A stretch of DNA of 64,000 nucleotides from Hydractinia symbiolongicarpus (lineage: Eukaryota; Cnidaria; Hydrozoa; Anthoathecata; Hydractiniidae). The DNA is taken from assembly GCF_029227915.1 (NCBI RefSeq), contig NC_079876.1, positions 25,579,828-25,643,827 on the forward strand, in the 5' to 3' direction. The translations under genes were made by a program, and so were the position numbers. A model generated the notes under the pieces. It made no database searches. It was not told the origin of the DNA and saw only the letters and a program-made list of their open reading frames with translations. Of this stretch, positions 17,331 through 64,000 are shown piece by piece (the first letter of the stretch is position 1; the number at the start of each line of letters is the position of its first letter).

Positions 17331-17403
17331 AATAAAAAATAAAAAACTTTATTATAACTTTTTATAATAACACATATTATATTATATTACATAACACAAT
17401 TAT

Positions 17404-18174
17404 ATGAGGATGGCACAAAAAGATGTGGTTGATATGAACGTGTCAATTTCTTTGGTTAGAAACATATTTAAAGAAATGTTTGATGAAGATAGAAAAGCAC
17501 GTGAGAGGAGGATAAATGAACTGGAAAAGACTTTATTGCAAATAATAAGCTCCAACACAGTTATTATGAACCAAAGACTGGACAAGCTAAATCCAGAACT
17601 CGATGACTTAAAGGAAGAAGTTAAGCTGCTTTCCAAGGAAAAAACAGAAATTGCAGATAGTCTTCAAGTTCACCAAAACATGGTGGATGACAAACTTGAA
17701 ATTTCCAAAACCCACATAAAAACTGGGGATGAAAAGCTGAAGGATTTAAAGGAAAAACTTCGTGAAATGGAGGATAGATCGCGAAGAAATAATCTCCGAA
17801 TTGATGGTTTGGCAGAACATGAGAAAGAAAGTTGGGAAGATTGCAAACAGAAGGTAAAAAATCTTTTGAAACAGAAACTGAATCTGAAAAATATAATAAT
17901 CAAAAGAATACACAGAGTTCGACCAATGACGGAAAAAGAAGGTCCCAGAACTATAGTGGCTAAATTGTTAAACTGGGAAGACAAGGAAGCAATATTGATG
18001 AATGCAAAGAAGCTTAAAAATACTGGTATTTATATTTATGAAGATTTCTCTGCGGCAACAAGGCTTATCAGAAAGGAGAAATGGATTGAAGTTCAGAGAC
18101 TTAAGGAACTTGGTAAATATGCAATTTTAAAATATGACAAATTATTTTCTAGGGATTTCAAACCAAAAACATAA
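17404..18174 (+). CDS. LINE ORF1 protein, coiled coil plus RRM-like domain
   Basis: A 256-aa open frame typical of L1-type ORF1 proteins (Transposase_22-like), nucleic-acid chaperones that bind LINE RNA as trimers. Residues about 20-125 are rich in Lys, Glu and Leu with heptad spacing and form a long coiled coil. MEDRSRRNNLRIDGL (about 123-137) is the signature at the start of the RRM-like domain, followed by IKRIHRVRP and PRTIVAKLLNWEDKEAIL. The C-terminal part is basic. The stop TAA at 18172-18174 is two bases from the ORF2 ATG at 18177, which suggests coupled termination and re-initiation. The frame is intact. Confidence 0.85.
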   Translation: MRMAQKDVVDMNVSISLVRNIFKEMFDEDRKARERRINELEKTLLQIISSNTVIMNQRLDKLNPELDDLKEEVKLLSKEKTEIADSLQVHQNMVDDKLEISKTHIKTGDEKLKDLKEKLREMEDRSRRNNLRIDGLAEHEKESWEDCKQKVKNLLKQKLNLKNIIIKRIHRVRPMTEKEGPRTIVAKLLNWEDKEAILMNAKKLKNTGIYIYEDFSAATRLIRKEKWIEVQRLKELGKYAILKYDKLFSRDFKPKT

Positions 18175-18176
18175 AT

Positions 18177-19569
18177 ATGTTTCCATTACGCAATAAGACA
18201 ATAGATTTGCTTTTTCAAAAGATGGCTGAAACCATAGGAGAAAATTTTGAAAAATTAGTTTTCGGAACTTTTAATTCGCAAAGTATCCTCTTAGATAATT
18301 CAACAGACCCTGACGTAAATCTAAACAAAACTTTTTTATCAGATACAAAGTACTTCACCGTAGATGAAGCAAAACAAAATCTACATCATGAAACTTCTTT
18401 TTCTATTTTACATTTAAATATAAGGAGTATAAAAAAGAACTTAAAAAAATTTAAAAACTTTCTGTCAAATTCAGAACATAAATTTAAAATAATATGTTTA
18501 ACAGAGACATGGTGTTGTGAAGATAATTGGGCAAATTCTCTTTACAGTTTGCCAAATTACTCCTCAAAACATCAAATTAGAGATAAAAGTTCTGGAGGAG
18601 GAGTTAGTATTTTCATTCACAATTCTGTAATGTTCAAAGTGCGTCCTGAGTTGAGTATTAATAATGAGCATGTTGAATCACTTTCTGTAGAAATAATCAA
18701 TAAAGCCACCAAAAACATTATTATTAATGCTGTATACAGGAAACCTGCTGGCGATTATAAACCATTTCATAACTACTTGAAAGATTTACTCAGACCTGCT
18801 GTTCTGAATAATAAACCAACCTATATTGTAGGTGACTTGAACCTAAACTTCTTAGATCACGAAACAAATGCAAAAGTTAAAAAATTTACACATTTTATTT
18901 TCGAAAGAAGTTTTTTTCCTCTGGTTAACAAGCCAACTAGAGTAACAAGAAAGAGTGCCACTTTAATTGACCACGTGTTATCTAATATAAATCTAGATGA
19001 TAAAACAAGTGCAGGTTTCATAAAGACTGATATCTCGGACCATTTTCCAATTTTTGTGATCACGCGATCTCAGCAAGTGACTCGCAAATAATATATAAAA
19101 GAAATATAAAAGACAAAACAATTGCAATTTTCAAAGAAAAATTAAGTAACGTAGATTGGTCCTATATCAAAAACATAAGTGATGCAAACATAGCCTACAA
19201 CGAATTTCTTAAATTATTTCTCTCATTATATAATAAAACATTTCCAAGAAAAGAAATAAAAGCAAAATCTAAATCTTTACTAAGTCCGTGGATGACAAGA
19301 GGGCTCATAAAGTCGTCAAAGCGGAAACAAAAATTATACGATAAATTCCTTAAAAAGAGAACTATGTTGAACAAGGAAAATTATAAAGCATATAAAACCT
19401 TATTTGAATCTATTAAACTAAAATCACAAAAACAACACTATGCAAATCGACTAAAACAGTATCAGTTTGACATTAAAAAAACATGGCAAATTATTAAAGA
19501 AGTTATTGGGAATAAAAAGACAGTAAGTTCATTCCCAAAGAGACTGATTTCAAATGGTGATGAAAAAGG
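18177..19569 (+). pseudogene. LINE ORF2, N-terminal APE-type endonuclease
   Basis: An APE-like endonuclease that would nick target DNA for reverse transcription. The open part (18177-19091, 304 aa) has the ordered motifs LHLNIRSI (Asn), CLTETWCCED (Glu), AVYRKPAGDY, YIVGDLNLNF (Asp/Asn), ATLIDHVLS and KTDISDHFPIF (Asp-His). After TAA at 19089-19091 the linker continues in another frame (RNIKDKTIAIF onward, LSPWMTRGLIKSSKRKQKLYDK near 19285-19345), so a small indel breaks the ORF before the RT. The reading frame is then cut at 19569 by the USP-retroelement insertion and resumes at 27396. Confidence 0.85.
19559..19569. repeat. 11-bp candidate target duplication
   Basis: GATGAAAAAGG at 19559-19569, in LINE sequence, recurs exactly at 24946-24956 between the two USP-retroelement copies. 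It behaves as the target-site duplication of copy A, or as the junction of a tandem duplication. Confidence 0.6.
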
Positions 19570-20312
19570 TTTACAATACAGCAAGCTGCACTGAAGTATC
19601 TTGTCTACAGGGACGGTGGATGTAAATAAAATTGGGATTAGGCTCCCAGAAGAAGGTGCTGAATACACTTTCTTGCTTATTACAAGCATGAGTACTGTCC
19701 AACTTGGACCTATAACTATTCACTGAGAAAATCTTAAAGAGAAAAAACAATCCTTCAATCACAAACAATACGACACAAGACAGAGCTAACAACATAAACG
19801 GACTGGTTACAGAACAAACACAAATGGAAAAAATGTATATGTCAAAAATATATAATATAAAAAAAAGAATTATATAAAACCCTCCTGTGCGCCAGAACTT
19901 GTGACTCTGGCTGTAGCTTTCCACATGTGTTACAGGGCCCCAACACTCAGCCTTACACAGGAGGTTGTCATGACAGGACCAGCCTGTACATATTTTGACT
20001 AAGGACAGCAGGGTTGTCAAGCCTGAAGACCAAGTTAGTAAACTTGGGCACCTTACTGAACTGGGGTAAAAAGTGGGGTCGTTACACCCAAAGACAAGCT
20101 GAAAGCAAACCCCCTTGCTAAGCTTCTTTTAAGTTACCAGAGAAGAGTGAGCTGAACTCTTTACCCTCTGGGTATTGACGGCAAACTGGTTCGAATGAAC
20201 TAGCTGGGGTAATATAAAACCGCTCGGATTTACATTTTCCTCCCCCATGACCCTGGAAGTACAGGTTTTATAAACGTAATGATAAATGTATAAGAAAGAA
20301 AGAAAAAGCGGA
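19570..20312 (-). promoter_or_regulatory. Family-1 3' UTR with conserved hairpins
   Basis: The 3' UTR contains two short hairpins also present in other families of the element: H1 (GGG...CCC around GTAACG, 20076-20089) and H6 (GCCAGA/TCTGGC, 19891-19911). Between them lies the conserved word GGGCCCTGTAACACATGTGG. Related sequence occurs at 25.0-25.7, 55.7-56.05, 60.35-60.74 and 63.6-64.0 kb. The probable role is recognition of the transcript by the element's own RT during target-primed reverse transcription, as in R2; this is inference. Confidence 0.6.
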
Positions 20313-23300
20313 TCAACAGCGAACGTAACAAAGAATATAACATGAATTGTTGTTGAGAATAGGTGGAGAGCATTTGCAAACCGCTCTATCATTGCAGTGG
20401 TACCAAGAATTTGTGGCAGGATCCTTAACATAAGCCCAATAATGACCTGCGGTTAATGTACCGGAGTGATTAATTGTTGCTAACAATGAGTAGTTCTGAT
20501 TAAACATTGTGTCCGTATCACTGACGAGAGGTAGTTGCAGGAGAGAGTCACGTAAAGAAACACATTCAACAACTCTGTTGTCTTTTACCAGATGTTCACC
20601 ATGTTTTAAAAACCTTTTAAGATGCAGGAATAAGATTTCACTACTCCTGCTGATTTGCGTTTCTCTAGTACTCTCTCTATGTGCAAAGCATTGCGGACAA
20701 AACCACTTGTTTCCATCAGTTAGAATTTCCGGTTCTAAAAATTTGCTGACACAAGATTGGATTTTAGATGTCATTGGCAGTGTTAAAATGTCCTGCATTT
20801 CGACATTTACCGAGGTGCACAGGCAGGTGTTACAGCTTACGGACATTGAGATTTCAGTTGAGATTTTATCTGCAGCAATCGGGGAAAATCCCTTAAGGGC
20901 GTCCAAAACCACAAACAAAATCTCTGCTACATCTTGCTGAGTATTAAATTGGAAGTCCAGTTTCCCATCAGAGTGCATTTGACGTTCAAGGGCCCAGAGA
21001 AAATTCGAAGGGTCAACAGGTGACAATGATTGCTTCAGCTTCGCCATGTTAAGCGAAATAGACCTCGCAATAGGTGATAAATGAAACGATTCTGACCCAC
21101 TCTGGCACCAGAGTGTTGGAATGGTACTTAATACTTGCAAAATGGCGTTGGCGTAACAAGTGTTGCCTTTGTTTAAAAAACCGATGTTTTTATAGACACT
21201 AATTGGTTGAGTGTCATTTTTATTTTGGCTAACCTTTTTAGATGGCCCCTTTCGGCGAGATGAAACACCCTTGGTCTCCACAATGGGCAAAGCCTGCTTG
21301 GATTTGGGTAATTGCATTAAGGAGTCAGTTGACCAAACATTGGATTCACGTGCCAGCCAGATACAAAAAGAAGACCTCATACTGATTTTACCGAGATCAT
21401 TTGCAGTGGAATAAGCAAGTTTGTTGGTGAAACCCATTCTTTTTAAACAGGCAGTGGTGGTTCTTGCACAATATCCTCTTGCTCCTACTTCCACTGCGAA
21501 GAAATCAACTTGCCAGCCATTAACCATAATCACATTCATTAAACAGGAATATTTGGCAACTTTTGTGGAGTGCCAAGCATTCATGTTTTCCTCACATGGG
21601 CAAGTGAGTTCTACAATAATAACGCGCTTAAGGTCATTTGAATATAACACAAGGTCCGGTTTAAGCTCAGAAATGGCAATATGGCTAGGAAACACATAGT
21701 TCGAGTGTGTGTCAGCAACAATCTTCCAATTTTTGGTAAGGTGCAGTATACCTGACACTTTAGATTTTGTATGTGCCTTTGACCCGGCTCTCAGAAAGGT
21801 TATTTTTTGACAATTTTTAGGAGGTTCAGAAGGAAGCTCAAAAATGAACTTTTTCAAAGTTTCTACCAAATGGGTAAGTACAGAATCGTGTCTAAAGGTA
21901 TATCTACCCTGGGAAAGAGCAGTTTTACAAGCACCAAGAATGTGAGCAGAAGTGCAAATTTCTTTGTGACATAGGAAACATGATGGTTCTGTATTTATTT
22001 TCCACCTCCTTAGGTTACTTGGTGATGGCAGAACATCGTAAGTGGATTGCAGGCAGAAAGATAAGAGATTAGGAGGAGTTGCTAGGATGTTCTTCCATGA
22101 AAGATCAAACTTTACGTAGTTCTCCCATCTTGTCCATTGGCCCTGCACCTGAAGTTGCAGTGCCTTAGATAGATAGCTTTCCTCGTCAATCTCAGCCGAT
22201 GTTTTTGCGATTAACTTTCTGTACTTGTGAGTGGTTTTTGGTGGTATTACTTCCACTTTACAAATGCCAAGACCGGTTCGTCCACGCTGTACAGGACCCC
22301 TTATGGTCTTGTACTTTAATTCACCCTCAGCTATGTTAACTGCATCGCTCACCTTCCAAGAACCTGCCTTTAAAGATGGATCGAGTGTTGACAGAATCGG
22401 ATCTTTGGAGTGACGCAAAAGTAGGTGGCCGCTAATCTTTGCGGATTTTAAAATAGAAGTGAGGCTCTTAATGGGCAGAGGGCAAGGAGAGGAGTCAGCA
22501 TATAGGGAAATGTTTGTAATGGAACGGTGTAAGTTCAGCCATTTTCGTATGAACACTGAAACCTTTTGCTCTAGGCGCCCAGCAACAGACATCGAGACCT
22601 CGTATATTAACAGTGGCCACTGAATTCGCGGGATCAAAAGATGTTGCAAGATCCAAAGTTTTTGCGCTCCAGTGTATAAGGACTTATTAATGACACCAAG
22701 CCCTTCTATCAGCTTTTCCTCCAATTCGTTGATGGACTTCCTGTCTGAGATAGAACAATTAATAATCCGGCCTAAAAATCGCACTGGCGAGGCATGAATA
22801 GATGGGATATACTGTGAGAAATCAATGTCGTTTTCAGGGCTACTTACACTAAAAGGGGTGCTATTGATAGATCTTCCCTTGATGATCACAAAACTACGGG
22901 ATTTTTCAGCGCGAAATGTCATATTGGCCCAACTTAGAGCTGTGGTGCACCTGTTAAGGAGTACTTGTGTTCCAGCAACAGAAGAAGACATGATGTTTAT
23001 GTCGTCCATAAAAGCCCTTATCAAAGGTAAGGATACTCTGTTAGAGGTGATGTAGCATGACACAGATGTTGCCAGCGTATACTCCAAAATAACATTTATG
23101 CCTGATAAAAACAAGACGATAGACAGGGTGCAGCCAGCGAAGATGCCCCTGAAGTGCTGGTGCCAATTGCTTGGAGCAGATTTGGAGAATGATTTGCTGT
23201 ACAGCCCAGAATAGTAACCCTTTACAATGGCAATCCAACTAGGAGATATACCATACCTTTCCAAAGCAAAAAAGATTAATCTGTGCGGTATTGAGGGATA

Positions 23301-24578
23301 CGCACTTGCGATATCCAACCAAATGGTGGCAAGATCAGTTCTTGCAGAGCGTGCATCTTTTAAAGCTGCCCAGATTGACGACATGTGTTCCCAACAGCCA
23401 GGAACATTCGCCATGCACCCCTTTTGAACAGACGTGTTAATAAACTTATTGTTATGGATGACATGTGTTTCTAGTCGCCTTGAAAAAATACTAAAAAATA
23501 ATTTTCCTTCGACATTTAGGAGGGCTATAGGTCGAAAATCTTTTAGGTTAGATGGTACAGGAGTTTTGGATTTGGGAATGTAAATTTCTTTGGCATGACG
23601 CCATTGAAGAGGCACAACACAATTTTTTAAACAACACTTAAATACATTAAACAAGAAGGATGAAATTTTCGTACATTTTTTGTACACTTTGTAAGATATG
23701 CCATTTAGCCCAGGAGCTGAGGCGTTCCTACGCGTATATAAAACACTTGCGAAATCAGAAAATTTGAAAGATGTGGCTGAGAAAGCTTTCTTGATCTGCG
23801 GAGGTGGTGGAAGACCTGGAAGAAGGGGAAGAGAAGAGTCGTGAAAATTATCAGATAAGCTAGATAATTTATGGTTGTCCAGAACAGACTGTTCAACACA
23901 AAGACGAATATCTGATTTAGGGTTAAGCAGGTCCTTTCCTGCTTTGTAGGGATCATTCCTAAAAACCTTTTGGGCGTTCTTAAAGCTCCACTTTCTTCTT
24001 CTTCGTTTCTCACCTCGACGCATCACCCTTATTTTTATTCGAACTTGTTGCAACAGTTCTTGCAAGGCAGTTAGTTCCTCCTTGATGGTTGATGAGGCAA
24101 TCTGCGCTAACAGAACATTTTTCTCCTTAACCAGATTAATGGAACGTATTGTACGCCTGTTAATACTGGCAATGTTTTTTGTTTTATTTGAGGAGCGGCA
24201 ACCAAATATTTTTGAAGCCTCTTCGTAAATTAAAGTTTCGAGTGTTTTAACTTTCTCAGAAATGGATAGATTGGTACAAGCCTTTAGCTTGCTATGCACA
24301 GCACTGTCTAAGTCACTCCAACGCTTATCATTCATCTTACCCCATAGAATGGGGGCTTTCTCATCGAGGTTCTGAAGTTTGTTTTTTTCCGTGTGACACA
24401 ATTTACTTTTGTGGGATGAAACCGAAGTAGAGATTGTGATCTTAAGCTTTTCAGCACCACTGAGAGAACAAACATCCTCCAAAACAACTTTACAGCTTTT
24501 CATCAAGTGCTTTTGGAGTACTGTATCATTTTGTTTATTGCAATGATTCTTTTCGAAGTTGGGTATAAAAGAAGTCAT
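20313..24578 (-). CDS. Retrotransposon polyprotein: zinc finger, RT, RLE, USP
   Basis: A 1421-aa intact ORF. About 300-560 is reverse transcriptase: KDFRPIALLNVEGK, TIWLDIASAYPSIPH (first Asp), IFAGCTLSIVLF and RAFMDDINIM with the FMDD box at 523-526. About 855-885 is a CCHC-type finger (CFLC, then HILGAC). About 930-1060 is a PD-(D/E)XK restriction-like endonuclease: KPDLVLYSN (D975), VELTCPCEEN (E990) and FFAVEVGARGYC. About 1130-1421 is a ubiquitin-specific protease (peptidase C19): GNTCYANAILQVL with the catalytic Cys at 1141, QQDVAEIL, zinc pairs CNTC and CPQC, and GHYWAYVK with His 1379 followed by WYHCNDRAV (Asn 1396/Asp 1397). All USP catalytic residues are present. The product should nick DNA, reverse-transcribe its RNA and remove ubiquitin from itself or host factors; the last point is inference. 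NeSL-type elements carry an unrelated ULP1 protease. Confidence 0.9.
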   Translation of the reverse strand: MTSFIPNFEKNHCNKQNDTVLQKHLMKSCKVVLEDVCSLSGAEKLKITISTSVSSHKSKLCHTEKNKLQNLDEKAPILWGKMNDKRWSDLDSAVHSKLKACTNLSISEKVKTLETLIYEEASKIFGCRSSNKTKNIASINRRTIRSINLVKEKNVLLAQIASSTIKEELTALQELLQQVRIKIRVMRRGEKRRRRKWSFKNAQKVFRNDPYKAGKDLLNPKSDIRLCVEQSVLDNHKLSSLSDNFHDSSLPLLPGLPPPPQIKKAFSATSFKFSDFASVLYTRRNASAPGLNGISYKVYKKCTKISSFLFNVFKCCLKNCVVPLQWRHAKEIYIPKSKTPVPSNLKDFRPIALLNVEGKLFFSIFSRRLETHVIHNNKFINTSVQKGCMANVPGCWEHMSSIWAALKDARSARTDLATIWLDIASAYPSIPHRLIFFALERYGISPSWIAIVKGYYSGLYSKSFSKSAPSNWHQHFRGIFAGCTLSIVLFLSGINVILEYTLATSVSCYITSNRVSLPLIRAFMDDINIMSSSVAGTQVLLNRCTTALSWANMTFRAEKSRSFVIIKGRSINSTPFSVSSPENDIDFSQYIPSIHASPVRFLGRIINCSISDRKSINELEEKLIEGLGVINKSLYTGAQKLWILQHLLIPRIQWPLLIYEVSMSVAGRLEQKVSVFIRKWLNLHRSITNISLYADSSPCPLPIKSLTSILKSAKISGHLLLRHSKDPILSTLDPSLKAGSWKVSDAVNIAEGELKYKTIRGPVQRGRTGLGICKVEVIPPKTTHKYRKLIAKTSAEIDEESYLSKALQLQVQGQWTRWENYVKFDLSWKNILATPPNLLSFCLQSTYDVLPSPSNLRRWKINTEPSCFLCHKEICTSAHILGACKTALSQGRYTFRHDSVLTHLVETLKKFIFELPSEPPKNCQKITFLRAGSKAHTKSKVSGILHLTKNWKIVADTHSNYVFPSHIAISELKPDLVLYSNDLKRVIIVELTCPCEENMNAWHSTKVAKYSCLMNVIMVNGWQVDFFAVEVGARGYCARTTTACLKRMGFTNKLAYSTANDLGKISMRSSFCIWLARESNVWSTDSLMQLPKSKQALPIVETKGVSSRRKGPSKKVSQNKNDTQPISVYKNIGFLNKGNTCYANAILQVLSTIPTLWCQSGSESFHLSPIARSISLNMAKLKQSLSPVDPSNFLWALERQMHSDGKLDFQFNTQQDVAEILFVVLDALKGFSPIAADKISTEISMSVSCNTCLCTSVNVEMQDILTLPMTSKIQSCVSKFLEPEILTDGNKWFCPQCFAHRESTRETQISRSSEILFLHLKRFLKHGEHLVKDNRVVECVSLRDSLLQLPLVSDTDTMFNQNYSLLATINHSGTLTAGHYWAYVKDPATNSWYHCNDRAVCKCSPPILNNNSCYILCYVRC

Positions 24579-24823
24579 AACTATAGGGGTTGATTATGCA
24601 CAGGATAAGATTGTCAGCCCTGCGTTGCCTGGCGCACAGGGTAAGGCTATAGTTTTCACAGCGGCACCAAGACTGTGAGGATTCGCTAGCGACTAATTAA
24701 CCCATTAGCCATTCATCCGTTGACGCGTACCGTGGATTAGGGTCCGGTTATAATAAAATCAAAATCAGTATACACAATCGAGTCCTTTAAAACGGTCATG
24801 TCGATCCAGTTGCAAACAGTTTA

Positions 24824-24918
24824 CCGGTCTTTCCCAGTGTCACTAGTCTCTCCCAGTGTCCCTAGTCTCTCCCAGTGTCCCTAGTCTTTCCCAGTGTCAC
24901 TAGTCTTTCCCAGTGTCA
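24824..24918. repeat. Five 19-bp tandem repeats in the element leader
   Basis: Five contiguous units of CTAGTCTTTCCCAGTGTCA type (first unit begins CCGG, some have CTC for TTT) lie 245 bp upstream of the ORF start on the minus strand. They may be promoter or RNA-binding units; iterated 5' leaders are seen in several LINE families. Confidence 0.85.
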
Positions 24919-24945
24919 GGTTGAAACCATTGCGGTCAACAATAA

Positions 24946-24956
24946 GATGAAAAAGG
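24946..24956. repeat. Second copy of GATGAAAAAGG
   Basis: Exact repeat of 19559-19569, lying at the joint between the 5' end of copy A and the 3' end of copy B. Confidence 0.6.
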
Positions 24957-27395
24957 TTTACAATACAGCAAGCTGCACTGAAGTATCTTGTCTACAGGGA
25001 CGGTGGATGTAAATAAAATTGGGATTAGGCTCCCAGAAGAAGGTGCTGAATACACTTTCTTGCTTATTACAAGCATGAGTACTGTCCAACTTGGACCTAT
25101 AACTATTCACTGAGAAAATCTTAAAGAGAAAAAACAATCCTTCAATCACAAACAATACGACACAAGACAGAGCTAACAACATAAACGGACTGGTTACAGA
25201 ACAAACACAAATGGAAAAAATGTATATGTCAAAAATATATAATATAAAAAAAAGAATTATATAAAACCCTCCTGTGCGCCAGAACTTGTGACTCTGGCTG
25301 TAGCTTTCCACATGTGTTACAGGGCCCCAACACTCAGCCTTACACAGGAGGTTGTCATGACAGGACCAGCCTGTACATATTTTGACTAAGGACAGCAGGG
25401 TTGTCAAGCCTGAAGACCAAGTTAGTAAACTTGGGCACCTTACTGAACTGGGGTAAAAAGTGGGGTCGTTACACCCAAAGACAAGCTGAAAGCAAACCCC
25501 CTTGCTAAGCTTCTTTTAAGTTACCAGAGAAGAGTGAGCTGAACTCTTTACCCTCTGGGTATTGACGGCAAACTGGTTCGAATGAACTAGCTGGGGTAAT
25601 ATAAAACCGCTCGGATTTACATTTTCCTCCCCCATGACCCTGGAAGTACAGGTTTTATAAACGTAATGATAAATGTATAAGAAAGAAAGAAAAAGCGGAT
25701 CAACAGCGAACGTAACAAAGAATATAACATGAATTGTTGTTGAGAATAGGTGGAGAGCATTTGCAAACCGCTCTATCATTGCAGTGGTACCAAGAATTTG
25801 TGGCAGGATCCTTAACATAAGCCCAATAATGACCTGCGGTTAATGTACCGGAGTGATTAATTGTTGCTAACAATGAGTAGTTCTGATTAAACATTGTGTC
25901 CGTATCACTGACGAGAGGTAGTTGCAGGAGAGAGTCACGTAAAGAAACACATTCAACAACTCTGTTGTCTTTTACCAGATGTTCACCATGTTTTAAAAAC
26001 CTTTTAAGATGCAGGAATAAGATTTCACTACTCCTGCTGATTTGCGTTTCTCTAGTACTCTCTCTATGTGCAAAGCATTGCGGACAAAACCACTTGTTTC
26101 CATCAGTTAGAATTTCCGGTTCTAAAAATTTGCTGACACAAGATTGGATTTTAGATGTCATTGGCAGTGTTAAAATGTCCTGCATTTCGACATTTACCGA
26201 GGTGCACAGGCAGGTGTTACAGCTTACGGACATTGAGATTTCAGTTGAGATTTTATCTGCAGCAATCGGGGAAAATCCCTTAAGGGCGTCCAAAACCACA
26301 AACAAAATCTCTGCTACATCTTGCTGAGTATTAAATTGGAAGTCCAGTTTCCCATCAGAGTGCATTTGACGTTCAAGGGCCCAGAGAAAATTCGAAGGGT
26401 CAACAGGTGACAATGATTGCTTCAGCTTCGCCATGTTAAGCGAAATAGACCTCGCAATAGGTGATAAATGAAACGATTCTGACCCACTCTGGCACCAGAG
26501 TGTTGGAATGGTACTTAATACTTGCAAAATGGCGTTGGCGTAACAAGTGTTGCCTTTGTTTAAAAAACCGATGTTTTTATAGACACTAATTGGTTGAGTG
26601 TCATTTTTATTTTGGCTAACCTTTTTAGATGGCCCCTTTCGGCGAGATGAAACACCCTTGGTCTCCACAATGGGCAAAGCCTGCTTGGATTTGGGTAATT
26701 GCATTAAGGAGTCAGTTGACCAAACATTGGATTCACGTGCCAGCCAGATACAAAAAGAAGACCTCATACTGATTTTACCGAGATCATTTGCAGTGGAATA
26801 AGCAAGTTTGTTGGTGAAACCCATTCTTTTTAAACAGGCAGTGGTGGTTCTTGCACAATATCCTCTTGCTCCTACTTCCACTGCGAAGAAATCAACTTGC
26901 CAGCCATTAACCATAATCACATTCATTAAACAGGAATATTTGGCAACTTTTGTGGAGTGCCAAGCATTCATGTTTTCCTCACATGGGCAAGTGAGTTCTA
27001 CAATAATAACGCGCTTAAGGTCATTTGAATATAACACAAGGTCCGGTTTAAGCTCAGAAATGGCAATATGGCTAGGAAACACATAGTTCGAGTGTGTGTC
27101 AGCAACAATCTTCCAATCTTTGGTAAGGTGCAGTATACCTGACACTTTAGATTTTGTATGTGCCTTTGACCCGGCTCTCAGAAAGGTTATTTTTTGACAA
27201 TTTTTAGGAGGTTCAGAAGGAAGCTCAAAAATGAACTTTTTCAAAGTTTCTACCAAATGGGTAAGTACAGAATCGTGTCTAAAGGTATATCTACCCTGGG
27301 AAAGAGCAGTTTTACAAGCACCAAGAATGTGAGCAGAAGTGCAAATTTCTTTGTGACATAGGAAACATGATGGTTCTGTATTTATTTTCCACCTC
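24957..27395 (-). mobile_element. USP retrotransposon family 1, copy B, 5'-truncated
   Basis: Matches copy A at a constant offset of 5387 bp from its 3' end to the CCHC finger (A coordinate 22008), then stops and LINE RT sequence resumes. I noticed one substitution between the copies (near 21738/27125, Asn to Asp in the endonuclease region). 5' truncation is the usual result of incomplete reverse transcription. No target duplication is visible at its 5' end. Confidence 0.85.
25700..27395 (-). pseudogene. Truncated RLE-USP polyprotein, copy B
   Basis: The C-terminal 560 codons or so of the family-1 polyprotein: end of the zinc finger, the whole PD-(D/E)XK endonuclease and the whole USP with its Cys, His and Asn/Asp residues. 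The reading frame is open to the truncation point; the first in-frame Met gives a 518-aa product (to 27256). It lacks the reverse transcriptase. If transcribed, it could still yield an endonuclease-USP protein, though there is no evidence that it is expressed. Confidence 0.8.
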
Positions 27396-29088
27396 AGACG
27401 CTAAAACAATAGCTGAAATTTTCAATAAATTCTTCGTTAATGTCGGACCTAAACTTGCATCAGCAATTCCTAACACTCAGCGAAAATTTGACGCGTATAT
27501 AAACAGAAATCAAGAAAACATGAAGCAAGAAACATTGACTGATAAAGAAATAACTGATCCTTTCCTCTCTCTTAAAATTAACAAAAGTCCAGGATATGAC
27601 GATATCAGTTCGAATGTAGTTAAGAACTGTCAAGATCAACTATTTGAACCACTAAAACACATTTTTTCGATATCTCTAAAAGAAGGTATTTTTCCCGAGA
27701 AACTAAAAATAGCACGAGTATCTCCAATTTTTAAAACTGGAGACGACTTGTTACCAACAAACTTTAGACCAATATCCGTACTGCCCTGTTTCTCAAAATT
27801 ACTTGAACGAATCATGTACAATAGATTATATAAATTTCTTTTAGAGCATAACATTTTATATGAAAAACAGTTTGGATTTCAACATGCACATGCTACTGAA
27901 CATGCAATTGTCCAACTTGTTGACCAAATACTCCAGTCATTTAATGAAAATAAATATACAATAGGTGTATTCATAGATTTATCAAAAGCCTTTGACACCG
28001 TAGATCACGAAATTCTAATAAAAAAACTCGAATCTTATGGTATCAGAAACATATCACTCAATTGGTTTCGTAGTTATCTCTCTCAAAGAAAACAGTTTAT
28101 AAGCTATGAAAAAGGTAAAGCTGACTATGAACACATACTTTGTGGAGTACCTCAAGGCTCGATATTAGGCCCACTTTTATTTTTAATATACGTAAACGAT
28201 TTGAAACGAGCTACAAAATTGCTCGATCCAATAATGTTTGCAGATGACACGAATTTATTTTACTCTCATAGCAACATAAAGGATTTGTTCGATTCTGTAA
28301 ATACGGAACTTATCGATATAAATGAGTGGTTCCGTGCAAACAAATTATCTTTAAATATAAAAAAAACGAAATATACTTTTTTTCACAAATTTAGTAGAAG
28401 AGATCACATTCCTTTGAAACTACCAAAATTAGCAATAAACAATATAGAAATTGAAAGGGAAACAGAAAGTAAGTTCCTTGGAGTAATCCTAGATCAAAAT
28501 ATTACTTGGAATAAACATATTGAATTGGTAGAAAACAAAATCTCGAAAAATATTGGTATTCTTTGTAGAGCTAAATCTGTTTTGAACCAGATGTGTTTAA
28601 AAAACATATACTTCTCACTAATTCACTCGTACATAAACTATGCAAACATTGCATGGGCAAGTACACACAGGACCAAATTAAAACCAATTCTGAGCAAACA
28701 AAAACAAGCAACTAGGATAATTTACCACCAGGATCATGGCACTCACTCATGGCATTTAATGAAAGATTTAAAGGCGCTTAACGTTTATCAAATAAATATC
28801 TATCAACACTTAATCTTCATGTTTAAAGTTAAAAACAAGTTAGCACCACAAACATTCCACAATAGTTTTGAGCTAATAAATCACAATTTTCCGACTAGAT
28901 TTCGTGAAAATAATCTAAGGCAGCCAAAAATTGTTACGCAGCGAACTAGTTTTGCTATATCTAAAAGAGGACCACGTTTATGGAATAACTTTTTAGACAG
29001 AGATTTAAAAAAGTTAACATCATTATGTGTTTTTAAGCAGTGTGTGAAAAATTTTATTGCGAAATTTGAAAACGAAGTTACTTTTTAA
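27396..29088 (+). pseudogene. LINE ORF2, reverse transcriptase part
   Basis: Continuation of the CR1/L2-like ORF2 after the insertion, open for about 563 codons but cut off from its endonuclease. RT blocks: RVSPIFKTGDD, NFRPISVLPCFSKLLERIM, GFQHAHATEHAIVQLVD, VFIDLSKAFDTVDHEIL (first Asp), GVPQGSILGPLLFLIYVND, PIMFADDTNLFYSH (FADD box, about 28235), SKFLGVILDQNITWNKHI. The C-terminus, with RGPRLWNNF near the end, is typical of jockey/CR1-group proteins. The first codons before 27396 come from copy B and are not LINE sequence. Confidence 0.9.
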
Positions 29089-29329
29089 ACAACAACAAGG
29101 AATAATAACTCTCTACTCTAACGAAACTTAAGGGGGGGGGGGGCTTGGTGATAAGGCAAAATTGCTTTCTGCAAGCTCCAGTCAGTCTTTTAAACTTCAT
29201 CGTATGGTTTGAGATCTTTATTTTACTAGCTGATGTATGTATATATTTTCTATTTACTTTTAAACGATACGAACTTGTATATATAAACGATCTTGTAACT
29301 CTCTTTGACGAAAAAAAAAATACACACTA

Positions 29330-30062
29330 CTACTGGAGTAAGAAGTGGAGTCGTCAATCTCCAAAGACAAGACTACAAAAAAAAATAATAAACAAATAAG
29401 AATAGTCAAACCCCCTTGCTGACATAAACCGGAAGTTGTGGTGCTGACTGCAATTTACCTAAGTTCTTCAAGGAACAGGATGTAAGGGTGTACACCATTT
29501 AGCAAGCTCTGTTTGCAAGGGACCACTGCTCTGTCGTTGCAATTAAACCACTTACCATGCACTTGGTTATAAGCAACAGTAAGTGTAATGGCTATTGTTC
29601 AAATTTCCAGAGTTAATTACAGCCCTTAAGTTGTAGTACTTGCAACAAGAGACTTCACTGTCTACAGTTATAGGCATAGAAACGGTGCCCGGGTAAGATG
29701 TGACAAGGGGAACAAACCTTAGACACAAGACCTTTCTTATAGGCAAAGCGCTTTAATAGCAGAACCAAAATTAAAGTGCACTCTGCGACCTCTTTTTCAA
29801 CTGTTACAGTTTGGTAACTATTACAGTAGTGACAGAAGTACGAGTTGACACCTGACAATTCTTCGCTCTCCAAAAAGTTGTCTATTGAAGATTGTACAGT
29901 CGATGTCAAGGGCAGTTGATGAAATGGACTTACTAGCTCAGAGGTGCTAATATTTATGCAAGCACTGCAAGTAGTGCAGTTTTAACACGAGTGTTGAATA
30001 ATCTACCAAAAAAAGGAAAGGCTAAAGACACCTCTGGTATGACATACTCAAGAATCTCTAGG
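29330..30062 (-). pseudogene. Older USP retroelement, C-terminal USP fragment
   Basis: On the minus strand, decayed frames give the later USP segments: SIDNFLESEELSG then NSYFCHYCNSYQT (zinc pair), LLLKRFAYKKGLVSK (about 29720-29760), and downstream WFNCNDRAVV (about 29540) equivalent to the box after the catalytic His. H1 lies at 29337-29372. The piece is most like family 2 (58-61 kb) but clearly diverged. It ends at the LINE 3' end (29319) and is interrupted on the other side by the copy at 30063-30720. With 16966-17330 it makes one split element. Confidence 0.7.
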
Positions 30063-30720
30063 AGGAAGAAAAAAATTTACAAAGAGGTGGCAAGCCACCG
30101 CAATGATGAACTCAAGCTGTTAGGTCTTTGGAAATAAGCTAGAGGTTGTACTCCTCTAGAGAAAATCTCTCTAAAAGCACATTTCTCCCTTTTTACAAGA
30201 AATTAATTAAAAAAAATATAAAAAATAAAAAGGACACAACACATTTGAAAAGATGAACAGAACTTTACCAAGGGCAGGTAGGTTTCGACCCATATTTCTG
30301 AACCTAAGTACCCTGGATGTCTAGCTGGATCACCTCGAAGAGGTCCGCAGACGGTCATCAGCAGAAACTAGACATCCCTATCTTCCTAAAGTAAACTTTG
30401 ACCACTTTCTGTTCAACTGTGCTATTCTTTGTTTTTAACTCAGGTAATAAGTGGAGTCGTTACTCTCCAAAGACAAGATCATGTGTGATAACCCCCCCCC
30501 CCCCCCCCTGCTAATATTTTTTTTAACTGGGGTAATAAGTGGAGTCGTCATTCTCCAAAGACAAGACCTAGACAAGACCTAGTATGACCATTATTTAAGT
30601 TGCCGCAATGGTTGATAATAGTTCTTAATTGAAAATTTTAACGATATTTCACTTCTCCGTCTACGGTAAAAGGCATGGAAAGGGTACCAGTGTTTAGATT
30701 TTTAGGAATTAGCCAATACG
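30063..30720 (-). mobile_element. USP retroelement family 2, 5'-truncated copy
   Basis: Minus-strand insertion in the older USP fragment. It begins in the end of a USP reading frame (PFTVDGEVKYR, then IINHCGNL, about 30600-30700), then carries two H1 hairpins (about 30532-30566 and 30433-30468), the 63-nt H2 region (30315-30377), the H3 stem near 30135-30155 and the GGTGGC/GCCACC hairpin near 30080. A 19-C run lies between the H1 copies. It shares the 3' end CCACCTCTTTGTAAAT with the copies at 53.4, 55.4 and 61 kb. Confidence 0.75.
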
Positions 30721-45358: not shown

Positions 45359-45379
45359 CTTACAAGTGCAATTGCATTT

Positions 45380-55689: not shown

Positions 55690-56690
55690 TTTAAATGAAA
55701 ACTTCCAGGGTCGTGGGGGAGGAAAATGTAAATCCGAGCAGTTTTGTATTGCCCTAGCTAGTTCATTCGAACCAGTTTCCCGTCAATACCCAGAGGGTAA
55801 AGAGTCCGGCTCACTCTTCTCTGGTAACTTAAATGAAGCTTAGCAAGGGGGGCTGTCTTTGGGTGTAACGATCCCACTTATTACCCCAGTTAAGTTTACT
55901 AACTTGGTCATAACAGCCTCCTGTGTAAGGCTAAGTGTTCGGGCCCTGTAACACATGTGGAAAGCTACAGCCAGAGTCACACCTGTAACCAGTCCGTTTA
56001 TGTTGTTAACTCTGTCTTATGTCGTACTGTTTGTGATTGAAGGATTGTTAGTGCCAACGGCCTTGTGTCAAAAATTGCCTCTCATATTACTGCTTACCCT
56101 GGTACCCTTTCCATACCTTTTACCGTAGATGGAGAAGTGAAATTTCGTGAAAATTTTCAATTAAGGGCTATTATCAACCATTGCGGCAACTTATATAATG
56201 TCACTACACAACCATAGCCTTCGACCAAATGGTTCACAGGTGGATACATTGCAACGATAGAGCAGTAATTTTCTGTTCTATTAACAGTCACGAGTCATAT
56301 GTTTTCTTTTTGGAAGAGCTGAGGTAAGAATATTTTAACCAGAATGAGTCAGCAATTGGGATTGACTACACTCAGTCTTGTCTTTGGAGAGTGACGACTC
56401 CACTTATTACCCAAGTCAAAAATAAAAACAAAATCAAGTAAAAATTAAGTTAGCAAGGGTGTTTGATCATACTAGGTCTTGTCTTTGGAGAGTGACGACT
56501 CCACTTATTACCCCAGTTAAAAAAAAAAAAATTTAGCAGGTGGGTTTGATCACACATGATCTTGTCTTTGGAAAGTAACGACTCCACTTTTTATCTGAGT
56601 TAAAAACAGAGAATAGCACAGTTGAAAAAAAATTGGTCAAATTTTACTTTAGGAAGATAGGGATGTCTAGTTTCTGCTGATGAACTCCTG
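55690..56690 (+). pseudogene. Partial USP retroelement copy, USP end and 3' UTR
   Basis: It begins with family-1-like 3' UTR sequence (55690-56055, H1 at about 55853), then the USP end: TAGTGCCAACGGCC, VDGEVKFR, IINHCGNL and WIHCNDRAV (about 56060-56275). Three H1 hairpins follow (about 56383, 56473, 56563), then the first 40 bases of H2, where similarity stops at about 56690. It closely parallels 60352-61390 but with a 56-bp deletion between two GGTC words near 55908 and small losses in the USP frame. Confidence 0.7.
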
Positions 56691-57800: not shown

Positions 57801-57906
57801 CTAACAAACTTATTGATACTGAAGGTAATAAAAACAAGATCCCAGACCAACCCCTAACAAACTTTTTGATACTGAAGGTAATAAAAACAAAATCCCCGAC
57901 CAACCC
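57801..57906. repeat. 53-bp tandem duplication at a truncation point
   Basis: Two adjacent 53-bp units (57801-57853, 57854-57906) begin CTAACAAACTT and end ACCAACCC, with a few substitutions. They abut the 5' end of the family-2 copy. Confidence 0.85.
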
Positions 57907-57909
57907 CCA

Positions 57910-60900
57910 ATAAAAGCTTTTATGGATAATATATTCTTAATGTCCACGTCTATTCCAAGCACTCAAAATTTATTAAACAGGTGTACAACAGCTCTTGATT
58001 CGGTAGGCATGTCGTTTAGGCCTTCTAAATCACGCAGCATTGTTATTGATAAGGGAAAAGTCGTCCAAAGTTCACCGTTTACAGTTGGCAGCGAAAAAAT
58101 TCCATCCATTCATTCTAATCCAATTAGTTTTTTAGGCAGAACAATAAACTCATCCTTGTCTGATTCTGCTGCAATACAAGTATTTCTAAATGATGCCGAA
58201 GACAAACTTATAGCTATAGACAGGTCCCTTCATAAAGGGGTCCATAAGGTTTGGTTTTTACACCATCTGTTAATTCCCAGAATCCGCTGGCCATTATTAA
58301 TTTATGAAGTTTCTCTATCTACTATCACAAAACTAGAGCAAAGATTTTCTGTTTTCATTAGGAAATGGTTAAAACTACATCATTCAATTTCTAACATTTC
58401 CTTATAATCCTTGACATCGCCTTGTCCTCTTCCCCTGAAAAGTCTTGCATCTGTTCTCAAATCTGCCAAAATCAGTGGACATCTGTTACTAAGAGATTCT
58501 ATCGACCCTTGTGTGTCTAAGTGCGTACCAGATTTGAAAGCTGGAAATTGGAAAGTTAGTGAGGCAGTTCTTTCGGCGGATAGTCAGCTGAATTTCAAAA
58601 GGATTTTAGGCTTGCATCAGACTGGTCGAGCTGGCTTAGGGCTCTTAGACCACAAAAATATACCACCAAAAGCACTTATGCTTACCGAAAGCTTGTTTCC
58701 AATATCATTGAAGAAAATGAAGAAGATATTTACCATGCCAGAGCTGTACAGTTGCATTTGCAAGGCAATTGGACGAAATGCTGCTCTTATGTGAAAAATG
58801 ATTTATCTTGGAGAACAATTCTTTCACTGCCACAATGTCTAACTTCCTTTTGTATAGGAGCAACCTACGACACCCTTCCCTCCCCAACCAATCTTGTGAG
58901 GTGGGGAATTGAGAAAGACAAAAGTTGCATTTTGTGCAAGAAACCATCCTCAAATGTCTCCCACATATTGGGTGCCTGTAGGACCTCCCTTACGCAGGGT
59001 AGATACACATGCCGTCATGACTCGGTTTTAATAGTTTTGGTTAAGGCATTAAAAGAGTTTTTGGTATCATATGAACCTCTTAAGGTTTCCAAGTGCAACA
59101 AAATTAATTTCATTCCGGCCGGTCAATCACCATCTAAGAAGAGGCATACAAAGTGTCCAGACCTTCTTCACCTTGCTTCTGATTGGAAAATACTGTCAGA
59201 TTTAGATTCTGTTTTAGTTGTTCCACCATACATTGCAATAACACAACTACGCCTAGACGTGTTATTAATATCCAGTTCTTCCAAAACTGTAATTATGTTA
59301 GAACTGACTTGTCCATGTGAAGAGAACACGGAATATTGGCACAAACGAAAGCTTAGCAAATATTCTTCACTTTGTTATGCTATGAAAAACAATGGATGGA
59401 TCGTGCATTTCTTTGCCATTGGGGTGGGTGCAAGGGGTTTTTGTTCAGAATCAGTAAGGACCTGTTTTCGTCACCTTGGTTTCCCTAACAAGCCTTTACG
59501 TTCCCTATTAAAATCCCTAACTTTTACCTCCATGAGTGCTACTTTTTACATCTGGATGTCTCGAAATTCTACCACTTGGGTTGAGCCTGAAAAAGCCCCA
59601 ATCATTCAAGTTTCTTCTGTTACAAATATGGAATGTAAGAAATCTAAAACCCCTGAGAAATCTTCCGCAAATCACACAAAATCTTGTAAAATCAAAAAAC
59701 CCGAAAAACCTGCTACAAGGTCTTCCAAAACAACAGTCGCATTGCCATCTAACCCTGATTTTAGGAATAGCGGTCTAGAAAACTTGGGAAACACATGTTA
59801 TGCAAACTCTATCTTACAATATTTTTATAACCTTCCAAAAGTTAAAGAAGCCATTTCTGTCAGCAAAACAACCTCAAAGTTAGGCGAAGCATTTGTAGGT
59901 GTTCTTCAAAGTTTGGCTGTTTCTAGAAGTCCAGTTGATCCCTCCCATTTTTTGCGTGCTATGAAACATCATATCTCAGCTGCGAAGGGAAGTGCATTTA
60001 ATATCCTTGCTCAGCACGACGTCCCCGAGGTTCTTGAATATCTCCTACCTGGTCTGTCATTAGACTTTCCATTTCTTGGAAGTCTTTTTAGTATTGGCAT
60101 CAAGACATCAACTACTTGCAATTCATGTCATATTACCAGCTCCTCAGAAGTTATAGCACCATGCATCCAACTTTCTCTGCACCCTACGTTACAATCTTCC
60201 TTAGATAATTTCTTCGAAAGCGAGGAGTTGTCAGGCACTAATGCCTACTTCTGCCATGTTTGCAACGCTCATCAAACTGCTCTAGTTGAAAAAGAGGTAG
60301 TGTCGTGCGGTTCCCATCTCATTTTACAGCTGAAACGTTTTGCCAGTGCCAGGAAAATGTAAATCCGAGCAGTTTTGTATTGCCCTAGCTAGTTCATTCG
60401 AATCAGTTTCCCGTCAATACCCAGAGGGTAAAGAGTCCGGCTCACTCTTCTCTGGAAACTTAAATGAAGCTTAGCAAGGGGGGTTGTCTTTGGGTGTAAC
60501 GACCCCACTTATTACCCCAGTTGAGTTTACTAACTTGGTCTTCAGGCTTGACAACCCTGCTGTCCTTAGTTAAAATATGTACAGGTTGGTCCTGTCATAA
60601 CAGCCTCCTGTGTAAGGCTAAGTGTTCGGGCCCTGTAACACATGTGGAAAGCTACAGCCAGAGTCACACCTGTAACCAGTCCGTTTATGTTGTTAACTCT
60701 GTCTTATGTCGTATTGTTTGTGATTGAAGGATTGTTAGTGCCAACGGCCTTGTGTCAAAAATTGCCTCTCGTATTACTGCTTACCCTGGTACCCTTTCCA
60801 TACCTTTAACCGTAGATGGAGAAGTGAAATTTCGTAAAAATTTTCAATTAAGAGCTATTATCAACCATTGCGGCAACTTAAATAATGGTCACTACACAAC

Positions 60901-60994
60901 CATAGCCTTCGACCAAATGGTACACAGGTGGATACATTGCAACGATAGAGCAGTATTTTTCTGTGATGACCGCCTGATTAACAGTCACGAGTGA
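57910..60994 (+). pseudogene. Family-2 RLE-USP polyprotein, truncated and interrupted
   Basis: RT thumb region 57910-58794 (KAFMDNIFLMSTS, then FRPSKSRSIVIDKG) with a TAA near 58408 and a one-base shift near 58660. The frame from 58752 has the finger CILC / HILGAC (about 58930-58980), the endonuclease LELTCPCEEN (about 59300) and FFAIGVGARGFC, then the USP: LGNTCYANSILQY (Cys codon 59796-59798), AQHDVPEVLEY, CNSC and CHVC, and LQLKRFAS. After the insertion at 60352-60736 the frame continues with NGLVSKIASRITAYPGT, NNGHYTTIAFD (His) and WIHCNDRAVFF (Asn/Asp). The second Asp of the RT box reads Asn here. Precise excision of the insert plus one 7-bp duplicate would leave one continuous USP frame. 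Confidence 0.85.
60352..60736 (+). mobile_element. Short family-1-like insertion with 7-bp duplication
   Basis: 385 bp of family-1-like 3' UTR (H1 at about 60485-60520) lie between AGTGCCA at 60345-60351 and AGTGCCA at 60737-60743. This is a target-site duplication of a 5'-truncated retroelement or of a SINE that borrows the same 3' end. Confidence 0.75.
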
Positions 60995-61695
60995 TTTGTT
61001 TTCTTTTTAGAAGAGCTGAGATATGAATATTTTAACCAGAATGAGTCAGCAAGGGGGCTTGACTACACTCAGTCTTGTCTTTGGAGAGTGACGACTCCAC
61101 TTATTACCCCAGTCAAAATAAAACAAAGTCAAATAAAAATTAAGTTAGCAAGGGTGTTTGATCATACTAGGTCTTGTCTTTGGAGAGTCTTATTACCCCA
61201 GTTAAAAAAAAAAAAAATAAATAAATAAAAATATAAAAAAATATTAGCAGGGGGGTTTGATCACACATGATCTTGTCTTTGGAGAGTAACGACTCTACTT
61301 ATTAACTGAGTTTAAAACAAAGAATAGCACAGTTGAACAGAAAGTTGTCAAAGTTAATTTTAGGAAGATAGGGATGTCTAGTTTCTGCTGATGACCGTCC
61401 GCGAACCTCTTCGAGGTGACCCAGCTAGACATCCAGGGTACTTAGGTTCAGAAATATGGGTCGAAACCTACCTGCCCTTGGTTAAAGTTCTGTTCATCTT
61501 TTCAAATGTGTTGTGTCCTTTTTATTTATTTTTTTTATATATATTTTTTTAATTCCTTATAAAAAGGGAGGATTGTGCTTTTAGAGGCATATTCTCTAGA
61601 GGAGTACAACCTCTAGCTTGTTCCAAAGACCTAACAGGTTGAGTTCATCATTGCGATGGCTTGCCACCTCTTTGTAAATTATTTTCTTCTTTTTT
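60995..61695 (+). promoter_or_regulatory. Family-2 3' UTR, chain of hairpins
   Basis: Order: H1 at about 61074, a partly deleted H1 at about 61172, H1 at about 61271, the H2 region 61372-61434 (outer arms GGATGTCTAG / CTAGACATCC enclosing CCTC-TTC-GAGG), the H3 stem CTAGAGG/CCTCTAG near 61605, ACCT-AAC-AGGT near 61635 and GGTGGC-like/GCCACC near 61660. Poly-T tracts lie between. It is shared with copies at 30.1, 53.4 and 55.4 kb and, diverged, 17.0 kb. Confidence 0.7.
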
Positions 61696-61734
61696 TTCTT
61701 TCCATCGGAAAAATATTAGGGTAATAAATATCCA

Positions 61735-63490
61735 CTAAGATCAGTGCACACTTGCTGCTAAAGGAGAAAGATCCATTGGTTTTAACGGCTGTGCCAACGT
61801 GAAAGGCCGATAGATGGAGCGTGTCTAAATCAATTAGAATTGCTAAAGCAGTATTGAAGATAAGGAAAATATGGGTTCACCCCACCTAGGTAAGGGCGGT
61901 TTAGGTCTCTATTCTAAACCTAAGGTACCTTCTCTTACACAGTCTCGCCCTTACATGAAAATAGTATCAGTGACTGCAAAAGAAATCGATGAAGAAAAGG
62001 ATACGGGCAGAGCTTTGCAACTGCAGGTGGAAGAAAGTTCGACCAGATCGGCCAATTATATTAGGAACAACTCCTCCTGGAAATCTTTGCTTGCCATAAC
62101 ACCAAAACTGTTGTCGTTCTGTTTAACCTCCACCTACGATGTTCTTTCTTCGCCAAGTAATTTAAGGCGTTCGCCTATATGTACCAAATCCTTCTGTTTC
62201 TTGTGTGAAAAACAAGTCTGCACTACAGCTAACAATTTAGGTGCCTGCAAAACCGGGGTAGATTCTAGTTTCGTCACGACTCCGTCTTGTGCGAACTTTC
62301 ACAGTTAATAACTACGTTTTCTAAATCTATTTCCTCTCCTGTAAAGCACCTAAATATTATAAAATTTGTTACAACCGGTAGGCACACTTCTAGCAAGAAA
62401 TCAAAACCAATAGGCCTTTTGCATCTTGCCATTGGTTATTTCATTCAGATTTAAACAGTGGACTAATTTCTCTTCGAATCTTGCCATAACATCGGATAGA
62501 CCAGATCTTGTACTGTATTCCAACAACAGCAAATTATTTTAATCAAACTTACTTGCCCGTGTGAGGAAAACATGGAAACCTTTGGTTAATATCATCGAGC
62601 ACAATGGGTGCCAGGTATATCTGTTCGCAATCGAAGTGGGTGCGCGTGGACATTTCTCTCGGTTGTTTGCCATTTGTTTAAAAAGATTGGATTTCCCAAA
62701 CGAAGAGGCTTTTCAAGCCAATAGTGTCTAAAGGTCGCTTACGCCCGGACCCAGAATCACCTACCAACAGCACTCCAGTAAAACCAACTCATGCCGGCCT
62801 GTTGTCTGAATCCACCATGGTGTGGTAGACCCTTCCACCTTTCTCAGAGCTTTACAACAAAAGATGTCTAATGATGGAAGCAACCCATTCAATATCAATA
62901 TTCAGCAGGATGTTCCTGAGATTCTACACCATGTATTGAACGAGTTAACACCGCCATCAGTTATTGCTATCATTACCAACATAGTAATTACAACGATATC
63001 ATGTAATTCATGCCTCTTCATGTCTTCTAATAGGGAGGAAAGTATGCCCATTGTGCCACCCCCTATTTCAAACAATATAGCAGACTTCATTAATTGTATT
63101 TTGCAACCAGAATACATGTCTTGAAATGACACATAGATGTGTCCACAGACCTCTTTCCATCAAGACAGTACAGTACCCGAGAAACTGCCTTCGCCCAATG
63201 TGGAGATATATTGATCATCCAACTGAAGAGGTACAACTACCTCCAAGGAAGATCTGTGAAAAATAATAAATATGTTTCTTGCCTCGCCCAACGGTGGCGA
63301 CACCTTGAAAGTTCATTCCTTCCTGCGGATGATTTATCATTCCCAAACCCATATAAATTAACCACCACTATAATCATTCGGCACACTGGCAGCTGGTCAC
63401 TATTGGGCCTTCATAAAAGATCAGAGTGTCAATACCTGGTTAAAATGTGATGATAGGGCAGTGATTAGTGTCAAGCCAGCTGACCTGAAT
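61735..63490 (+). pseudogene. Family-3 RLE-USP polyprotein, decayed
   Basis: A third, more decayed family. 61871-62308 is close to family 1 (GKGGLGLYSKPKV, KEIDEEKD, RALQLQVEES, LSFCLTSTYDVLSSPSNLRR and the finger CFLC / NLGACKT). Around 62540-62650 the endonuclease remains as TCPCEENM and IEVGARG-like pieces in shifted frames. The USP part (62822-63450) has VDPSTFLRALQQKM, IQQDVPEILHHVL, CNSCL, IIQLKRYNYLQG and, around 63385, IRHTGSW with the shifted GHYW-like His box, then a CDDRAV-like box near 63450. The Cys box GNTCYAN is missing. Several stops and shifts are present. Confidence 0.75.
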
Positions 63491-64000
63491 AACGCACGAA
63501 AACAGGAGTAAATTATATCAAAAGGCGGAGAGATCTTTTTTCTTAACGGTTTTAAATTACCCCTGTTGTGTGTTTCAGATACAGTTTACCGTTAAGCACG
63601 AGTTGGCTCACTTGCCACTTTCCTAGAAAGTAATTATAAGAGGCTTAGCAAGGGGTCTTGGCAATTGCTTTGCCTTTGGGTGCAAAGACTCCACTTATAA
63701 CCACAGTTCTGTAGGGAGGCTAAGTTGCCTCACTTAGTCTACAAGGTTAACGATCCTGCTTTACCTGATGTTAGGAAGAAGCTATGTAAGGTTCTTTTAT
63801 CTTTCTTGTTTCCGTGACATTACATCCACAAAGATTACTCCACCTTCTTCAGGCTGGTCCTGACCTACGGCTGGTCCGAAGCAAATGGCTGGTCCAAAGC
63901 GACAACTACCCGTGTAATGTTAAGTGTTGGGATCCCGTAACACATATGGAAAGCTACTGCCAGGTTCACAAGTCCTGGTGCTTGGGAGGTTGTCTGCTCA
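63491..64000 (+). promoter_or_regulatory. Family-3 3' UTR, running off the window
   Basis: Contains H1 (GGGTGCAAAGACTCC, about 63676-63690), a word CCCGTAACACATATGGAAAG matching the family-1 box, and H6 (CCAGG 63960-63964 / CCTGG 63974-63978). The end of the element is beyond the window. Confidence 0.65.

Follow-up and report, generated by a model that had tools for sequence, protein, structure and literature searches.

A retrotransposon of Hydractinia symbiolongicarpus that joins a restriction-like endonuclease to a C-terminal ubiquitin-specific protease domain

Ulp1 and OTU proteases carried by mobile elements hint at a conflict between transposition and the ubiquitin/SUMO system, a conflict for which, to our knowledge, there is little experimental handle. 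In the relevant passages of the literature, an Ulp1-like protease is placed at the N-terminus in nematode NeSL elements and in Utopia-1_TSP (PMC4640811). Ginger1 transposons carry OTU or Ulp1 proteases and some Helitrons carry OTU, and a passage of the same source mentions one Peptidase C19 fused to transposase_11 in Trichomonas (PMC2836005). Described here is a long interspersed nuclear element (LINE), called element A, from a stretch of 64,000 nucleotides of Hydractinia symbiolongicarpus (NC_079876.1, positions 25,579,828 to 25,643,827 of the forward strand; hereafter the window, in which all coordinates are counted). Its open reading frame (ORF) encodes one protein made up of a reverse transcriptase (RT), a CCHC finger, a restriction-like endonuclease (RLE) and a ubiquitin-specific protease (USP) of family C19, an anatomy about which hardly any doubt is left (Table 1). 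The intact ORF had been reported in a preliminary description made from the letters alone, whose length, strand and coordinates proved exact.

Element A is supported as an RLE-class non-long-terminal-repeat (non-LTR) retrotransposon, for which RT and endonuclease activity and target-primed reverse transcription are predicted from sequence and fold models. The Pfam-A scan of the ORF returned RVT_1, and the catalytic aspartates of a LINE-type RT are present, whereas zf-RVT, at 24.2 bits, stayed under its cut-off of 27.5. The CCHC finger (C867, C870, H879, and C884) lies C-terminal to the RT. Between the finger and the USP stand the RLE motifs, namely R896-H-D (896-898), K973-P-D975, E990 within VELTCPCEEN, and K1006, so that the residues of both the finger and the PD-(D/E)XK endonuclease announced in the preliminary description could be located. 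In a phmmer search against PDB sequences, the RT part matches R2 proteins (E=1e-19), and the finger and RLE are colinear with R2 but weak, at 2.5 and 3.7 bits. In the predicted model, the R2 fold aligns across the whole RT-RLE part, to model residue 854, in agreement with the motifs and with the earlier assignment to the RLE class. The model also matches the fold of LINE-1 ORF2p; the lack of other RLE clades among the fold matches carries no information. No N-terminal C2H2 finger was detected in A, and no long terminal repeats appeared, there being no repeat of at least 60 bases between the two ends of the element among those listed.

The C-terminal domain is supported as a true peptidase C19, fused in frame, and deubiquitinase activity is predicted for it from its sequence and modelled fold. 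The Pfam UCH profile scores 111.9 bits, its cut-off being 23.9. The Cys box holds Cys1141 in NKGNTCYANA, the His box holds H1379 in AGHYWAY and is followed by N1396-D1397, and the two zinc pairs are C1249/C1252 and C1294/C1297; zinc-binding Cys pairs are also found in the predicted fold. Profile, catalytic residues, and fold thus agree on the USP of the preliminary description, which had listed these boxes, Cys1141, and both zinc pairs, and which would have given way had a Pfam search returned no UCH hit; UCH and RVT_1 are both significant. No Ulp1 family member occurs among the Pfam matches of the ORF to E=0.1. Fold alignments of the domain with cellular USPs give 26-30% identity, and the top-ranked matches are ubiquitin-specific USP2 chains. 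Removal of a ubiquitin-like modifier other than ubiquitin is improbable: USP18 with ISG15 and USP36 with Fubi belong to the same structural family and are among the fold matches, but the USP2 chains rank above them, even if rank is no proof of substrate.

Relatives were gathered by three protein searches: one with the whole ORF (98 proteins, P0001-P0098), one with the USP segment (the best 120 of 188, P0099-P0218), and one with a 19-row alignment (the best 120 of 124, scores being given only to candidates sharing most words). They include two proteins of H. symbiolongicarpus, P0003 with 97% identity over 780 residues and P0099 with 99.5% over 404. A profile built from 16 element USPs was then scanned over 163 proteins, that is, A together with P0001-P0098 and P0219-P0282 (162 proteins); P0099-P0218, from the USP-only search, lie outside this set. 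More than 80% of the profile is covered in 87 of the 163, which comprise 76 element proteins and 11 cellular USPs. All 76 element proteins have an RLE with the USP behind it, and the same ORF includes an RT core in 63 and a whole RT in 54. That the fusion might be a private read-through, missing from other copies, was the second way in which the preliminary description could have failed; further copies carry the USP, while some relatives elsewhere are without it. A host USP gene joined to a LINE by read-through or assembly error is practically out of the question and was rejected. Public gene models do call one piece USP2-like (P0099), but the USP is common to the element copies B, C, and D of the window, and the same order recurs in 75 public proteins.

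The USPs of P0223, P0225, P0226, P0227, and P0229 are at the C-terminus, as is the part-USP of P0230, a protein that ends inside its own USP and is outside the 76. N-terminal C2H2-type fingers above the Pfam cut-off occur in the USP-bearing P0228 and P0229 (zf-C2H2) and P0224 (zf-met). In 45 of the 64 complete proteins, each viewed up to 130 letters, the linkers between RLE and USP range from 37 to 321 residues and share no cleavage-like motif by eye. Polyprotein self-processing, by which the USP would cut itself off the RT-RLE part, is therefore very hard to credit. Some viral deubiquitinase-type proteases process polyproteins, as is reported for PRO of turnip yellow mosaic virus (TYMV; PMC3744425), but the ORF of A also has no ubiquitin-like domain above cut-off in Pfam-A (APG12, at E=0.041, is below its own).

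Among the matches listed, the animal-named element proteins with a USP are all from Hydractinia. Named relatives in which no USP can be seen, several of which are truncated, belong to Branchiostoma, Mytilus, Dreissena, and a fish. The USP-bearing P0032 and P0065 stand under bacterial metagenome-assembled genome labels, most likely through contamination. The USP-less P0066, P0071, P0073-P0076, P0231-P0235, P0238, and P0240 stop no more than about 30 residues away from the RLE, close to where their USP-bearing sisters begin the USP linker. The phage collection gave no match (near mode) and the viral contigs no confirmed match; in genome contigs, a first scan gave none and a second scan one distant relative, L001, at 28%. 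As for public annotation, P0099, which bears the name 'ubiquitin carboxyl-terminal hydrolase 2-like', corresponds to aa 1018-1421 of A, and P0126, named '51-like', corresponds to aa 925-1420 and thus includes RLE residues. Since annotations of H. symbiolongicarpus break such elements up or misname them, the number of USP genes credited to the Hydractinia host may be inflated, and annotators should be warned that element pieces are listed there as host genes.

The history of the fusion was followed on quick trees rooted on the long-branched P0094. The earlier row set left out 17 proteins with at most 85% of the RT-RLE columns filled, as well as P0095-P0098, and counted 8 proteins as unknown for USP; on the first tree, of 78 rows, a single USP clade was not rejected (approximately unbiased test, p=0.297). 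The later tree has 109 rows, 16 of them unknown for USP, with P0095-P0098 and P0271 set aside as another lineage. All 65 USP-bearing rows fall within one group of 90 (SH-aLRT 99), together with 13 USP-less and 12 unknown rows. The USP label needs 3 changes on this tree, and since its starred branches force at least 3, one unbroken USP clade is not claimed. This tree may reflect a single gain followed by two losses, or else repeated gains, as change counts cannot separate gain from loss. On a tree of the USP itself, 76 element domains are split once from 11 cellular ones, weakly (SH-aLRT 79) and with cellular USPs thinly sampled, which is compatible with a single capture but is no proof of it. 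Within the window, the decayed relatives C and D both hold RLE and USP sequence, and the fusion therefore predates the split between A, C, and D.

Taken with the anatomy, the predicted fold, the conservation of catalytic and zinc residues, and the RT-RLE linkage in the relatives examined, all of which were computed, these data lead to the reading that we favour, with a probability of about 0.5: A is a young member of an RLE-LINE lineage whose protein ends in a C19 USP that is active in cis and shields the element's complex from turnover. What we infer for the USP is catalytic activity, ubiquitin as the substrate, action in cis, and stability as the benefit gained. Insertion would proceed by target-primed reverse transcription as in R2, using the RT, CCHC finger, and RLE. 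The C-terminal USP would work as a deubiquitinase, tethered in cis to the ribonucleoprotein of the element by the variable linker, where it would trim ubiquitin off the protein that the element encodes and off host factors close by. The complex would thereby escape proteasomal turnover until the cDNA is complete. LINE-1 ORF1p is a polyubiquitylation target, according to the relevant part of one study (PMC5570191). We favour protection of the ribonucleoprotein or integration complex because of that precedent and because the fusion would keep the enzyme on the complex; that protection is the main role of the USP is nearly an even bet. The same fusion in many related elements suggests a benefit from escaping or editing host ubiquitin tags.

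Several observations weigh against this reading. The two branches without USP inside the lineage indicate that the domain is dispensable for some members. The database entries are predicted ORFs, biased to intact proteins. The USP is also less conserved than the other two domains: across 43 complete proteins, pairwise identity averages 32% for the USP, 56% for the RT, and 46% for finger-RLE, with RT and USP identities correlated at 0.86. Finally, A has Asn950 where B, through a single difference at 21731, has Asp, and this position is a nearly invariant Asp in the 19-row alignment, so that copy A may not be fully active. The low identity of the USP could also speak for a ubiquitin-binding or structural module in which catalysis is unneeded. 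This is very unlikely, as Cys, His, and Asn/Asp are kept in 75 of 76 element proteins, the exception being P0078, which is gapped in the columns of the His and the Asp; all 76 have Cys1141, C1252, C1294, and C1297, and 75 of them have C1249.

The main rival to protection is that an active USP works at the nicked target, on chromatin or on repair factors (ubiquitylated histones or PCNA, for example), and so facilitates synthesis of the cDNA or completion of the second strand. In favour of this, the USP immediately follows the RLE, the domain that acts at target DNA, and for Ginger elements Bao and colleagues suggested that Ulp1 and OTU domains have a part in transposition and DNA repair (PMC2836005). 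USP1 bound to ubiquitylated FANCD2 is among the fold matches too, but so are many other USPs, and the match is unspecific. We consider this rival possible but on the unlikely side. Protection and action on target histones had both been put forward in the preliminary description, and both are kept as leading candidates. A view that spans them, offered only tentatively, is that a long-lived and so far unreported RLE lineage captured a cellular USP, probably once, and has kept it active as a counter-defence enzyme, which shares one polypeptide with the RT and endonuclease and edits ubiquitin both at its own complex, sparing it from turnover, and at the nicked target.

Table 1. Element A and its relatives in the window. 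A-like coding of C, D, and the fragments was found by tblastn, and identities refer to the listed stretches only; the 5' end of A was set by where the 3' end of copy B stops.
Feature	Position	Strand	Basis
Element A, full unit, 5387 bp	19559..24945	(-)	repeat spacing and left end shared with copy B
ORF, 1421 aa, RT-CCHC-RLE-USP	20313..24578	(-)	ORF coordinates and Pfam-A
5' untranslated region (UTR), ~367 bp; 19-bp repeat x4.8 at 24827-24918	24579..24945	(-)	
RT domain, aa 334-604; D422, D525, D526	22767..23579	(-)	Pfam RVT_1, E=8.3e-16
CCHC finger, aa 867-884	21927..21980	(-)	motif residues
RLE, ~aa 895-1085; RHD, KPD, E990, K1006	21324..21896	(-)	motifs, phmmer, fold
USP/C19 domain, aa 1132-1418; Cys1141 codon 21156-21158	20325..21185	(-)	Pfam UCH, E=5e-32
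3' UTR, 754 bp, without poly(A); conserved module ~20119	19559..20312	(-)	
Copy B, 5'-truncated from ~aa 858, head to tail directly upstream of A	24946..27395	(-)	
Decayed relative C, RT catalytic region to RLE to USP, 39-57% identical to A	57904..61003	(+)	
Decayed relative D, aa 712 (past RT core) to RLE to USP, 33-51% identical to A	61731..63493	(+)	
USP fragments 29476-29972 and C-type 3' end 30065-30693	29476..30693	(-)	
C-type USP fragment F, then C-type 3' UTR repeats	56202..56306	(+)	

Copies A and B, which differ once across 2450 bp, together interrupt another LINE, which we take to be CR1-like, of which an APE-type (apurinic/apyrimidinic) endonuclease lies on the left side and an RT on the right (Pfam-A). 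The joined flanks are open in one frame at 5 of the 15 junction offsets tried, and no target-site duplication of A+B over 3 bases was seen in the range tried. An order of target, complete A, and truncated B is the one expected if the RT, having completed A, then switched to another RNA molecule at its 3' end. Template jumps of R2 in vivo are reported in the pertinent part of one paper (PMC3414825). The head-to-tail pair is thus a candidate for an end-to-end template jump within one insertion, next to which two successive insertions or a tandem duplication stand as live alternatives.

A conserved 3' UTR module (TAGCAAGGGGGTTTG ... TTTGGAGAGTGACGACTCCACTTATTACCCC) was found by pattern at 14 places in the window, and 11 copies were aligned. 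It is single in A, B, and D, and tandem in C-type copies, in units of about 100 bp (53377-53694, 56318-56614, and 61015-61325). For six stretches, folding showed no clear advantage over shuffled sequence (z -1.25 to +0.83). Of the 10 pairs in the consensus fold, 3 are changed on both sides, and the covariation term is only -0.37. A structured 3' UTR is therefore not claimed, and the module is regarded as conserved sequence only. A search of 17000-31000 against Rfam gave no match with E of 0.5 or less, and hence no known 5' ribozyme was found there. An A-like 3' UTR piece of about 390 bp lies within the USP of relative C (~60340-60760), flanked on both sides by AGTGCCA as a possible 7-bp target duplication; fragment F has the same 3' junction as this piece and reaches further 5'.

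Elsewhere in the window, the block 43106-49670 (-), presumably Helitron-like, includes an ORF at 46068-49670 in which DUF6570 occurs together with an OTU protease (above cut-off, E=2.5e-5) and another at 43106-45358 with a PIF1-like helicase (Pfam-A). With the USP of A, two different deubiquitinase-type proteases are thus found on mobile-element-like genes in one 64-kb window. A tandem array at 37817-38539 consists of units of about 162 bp, with 3-5 copies by repeat family, 68-98% identical to the reference.

Compared with known systems, A shares 16-21% identity in fold alignments with R2 (R2Bm, R2Tg, and R2 of Platysternon). It differs from R2 in having no detected N-terminal C2H2 finger, in carrying a USP, and in its site, since the one insertion examined lies inside an APE-type LINE and not in the 28S ribosomal DNA that defines the R2 clade. 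Like NeSL and Utopia, as portrayed in the relevant passages (PMC4640811), A is an RLE LINE with a cysteine protease of the ubiquitin/SUMO world. By contrast with the protease-bearing members of those groups, its protease is C19 and C-terminal rather than Ulp1-like (C48) and N-terminal, and kinship with protease-less NeSL/Utopia families is possible. The Ginger1, Helitron, and Trichomonas cases, in the passages that describe them (PMC2836005), likewise combine a mobile-element protein with a deubiquitinase-type protease, but they are DNA transposons with neither RT nor RLE. The preliminary description knew of no RLE element with a USP, and no such RLE or other non-LTR element is described among the matches listed in open-licence PMC full text, a body outside which Repbase and most subscription papers lie. 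Finally, the USP of A has the same fold, catalytic residues, and zinc pairs as the cellular USP2, USP8, USP15, and USP21, but at 26-30% identity and fused to a retrotransposon protein. An R2-like machine is thereby joined to a canonical USP, with its active site kept in 75/76 element proteins, and this is a protease class for which probes and assays are ready.

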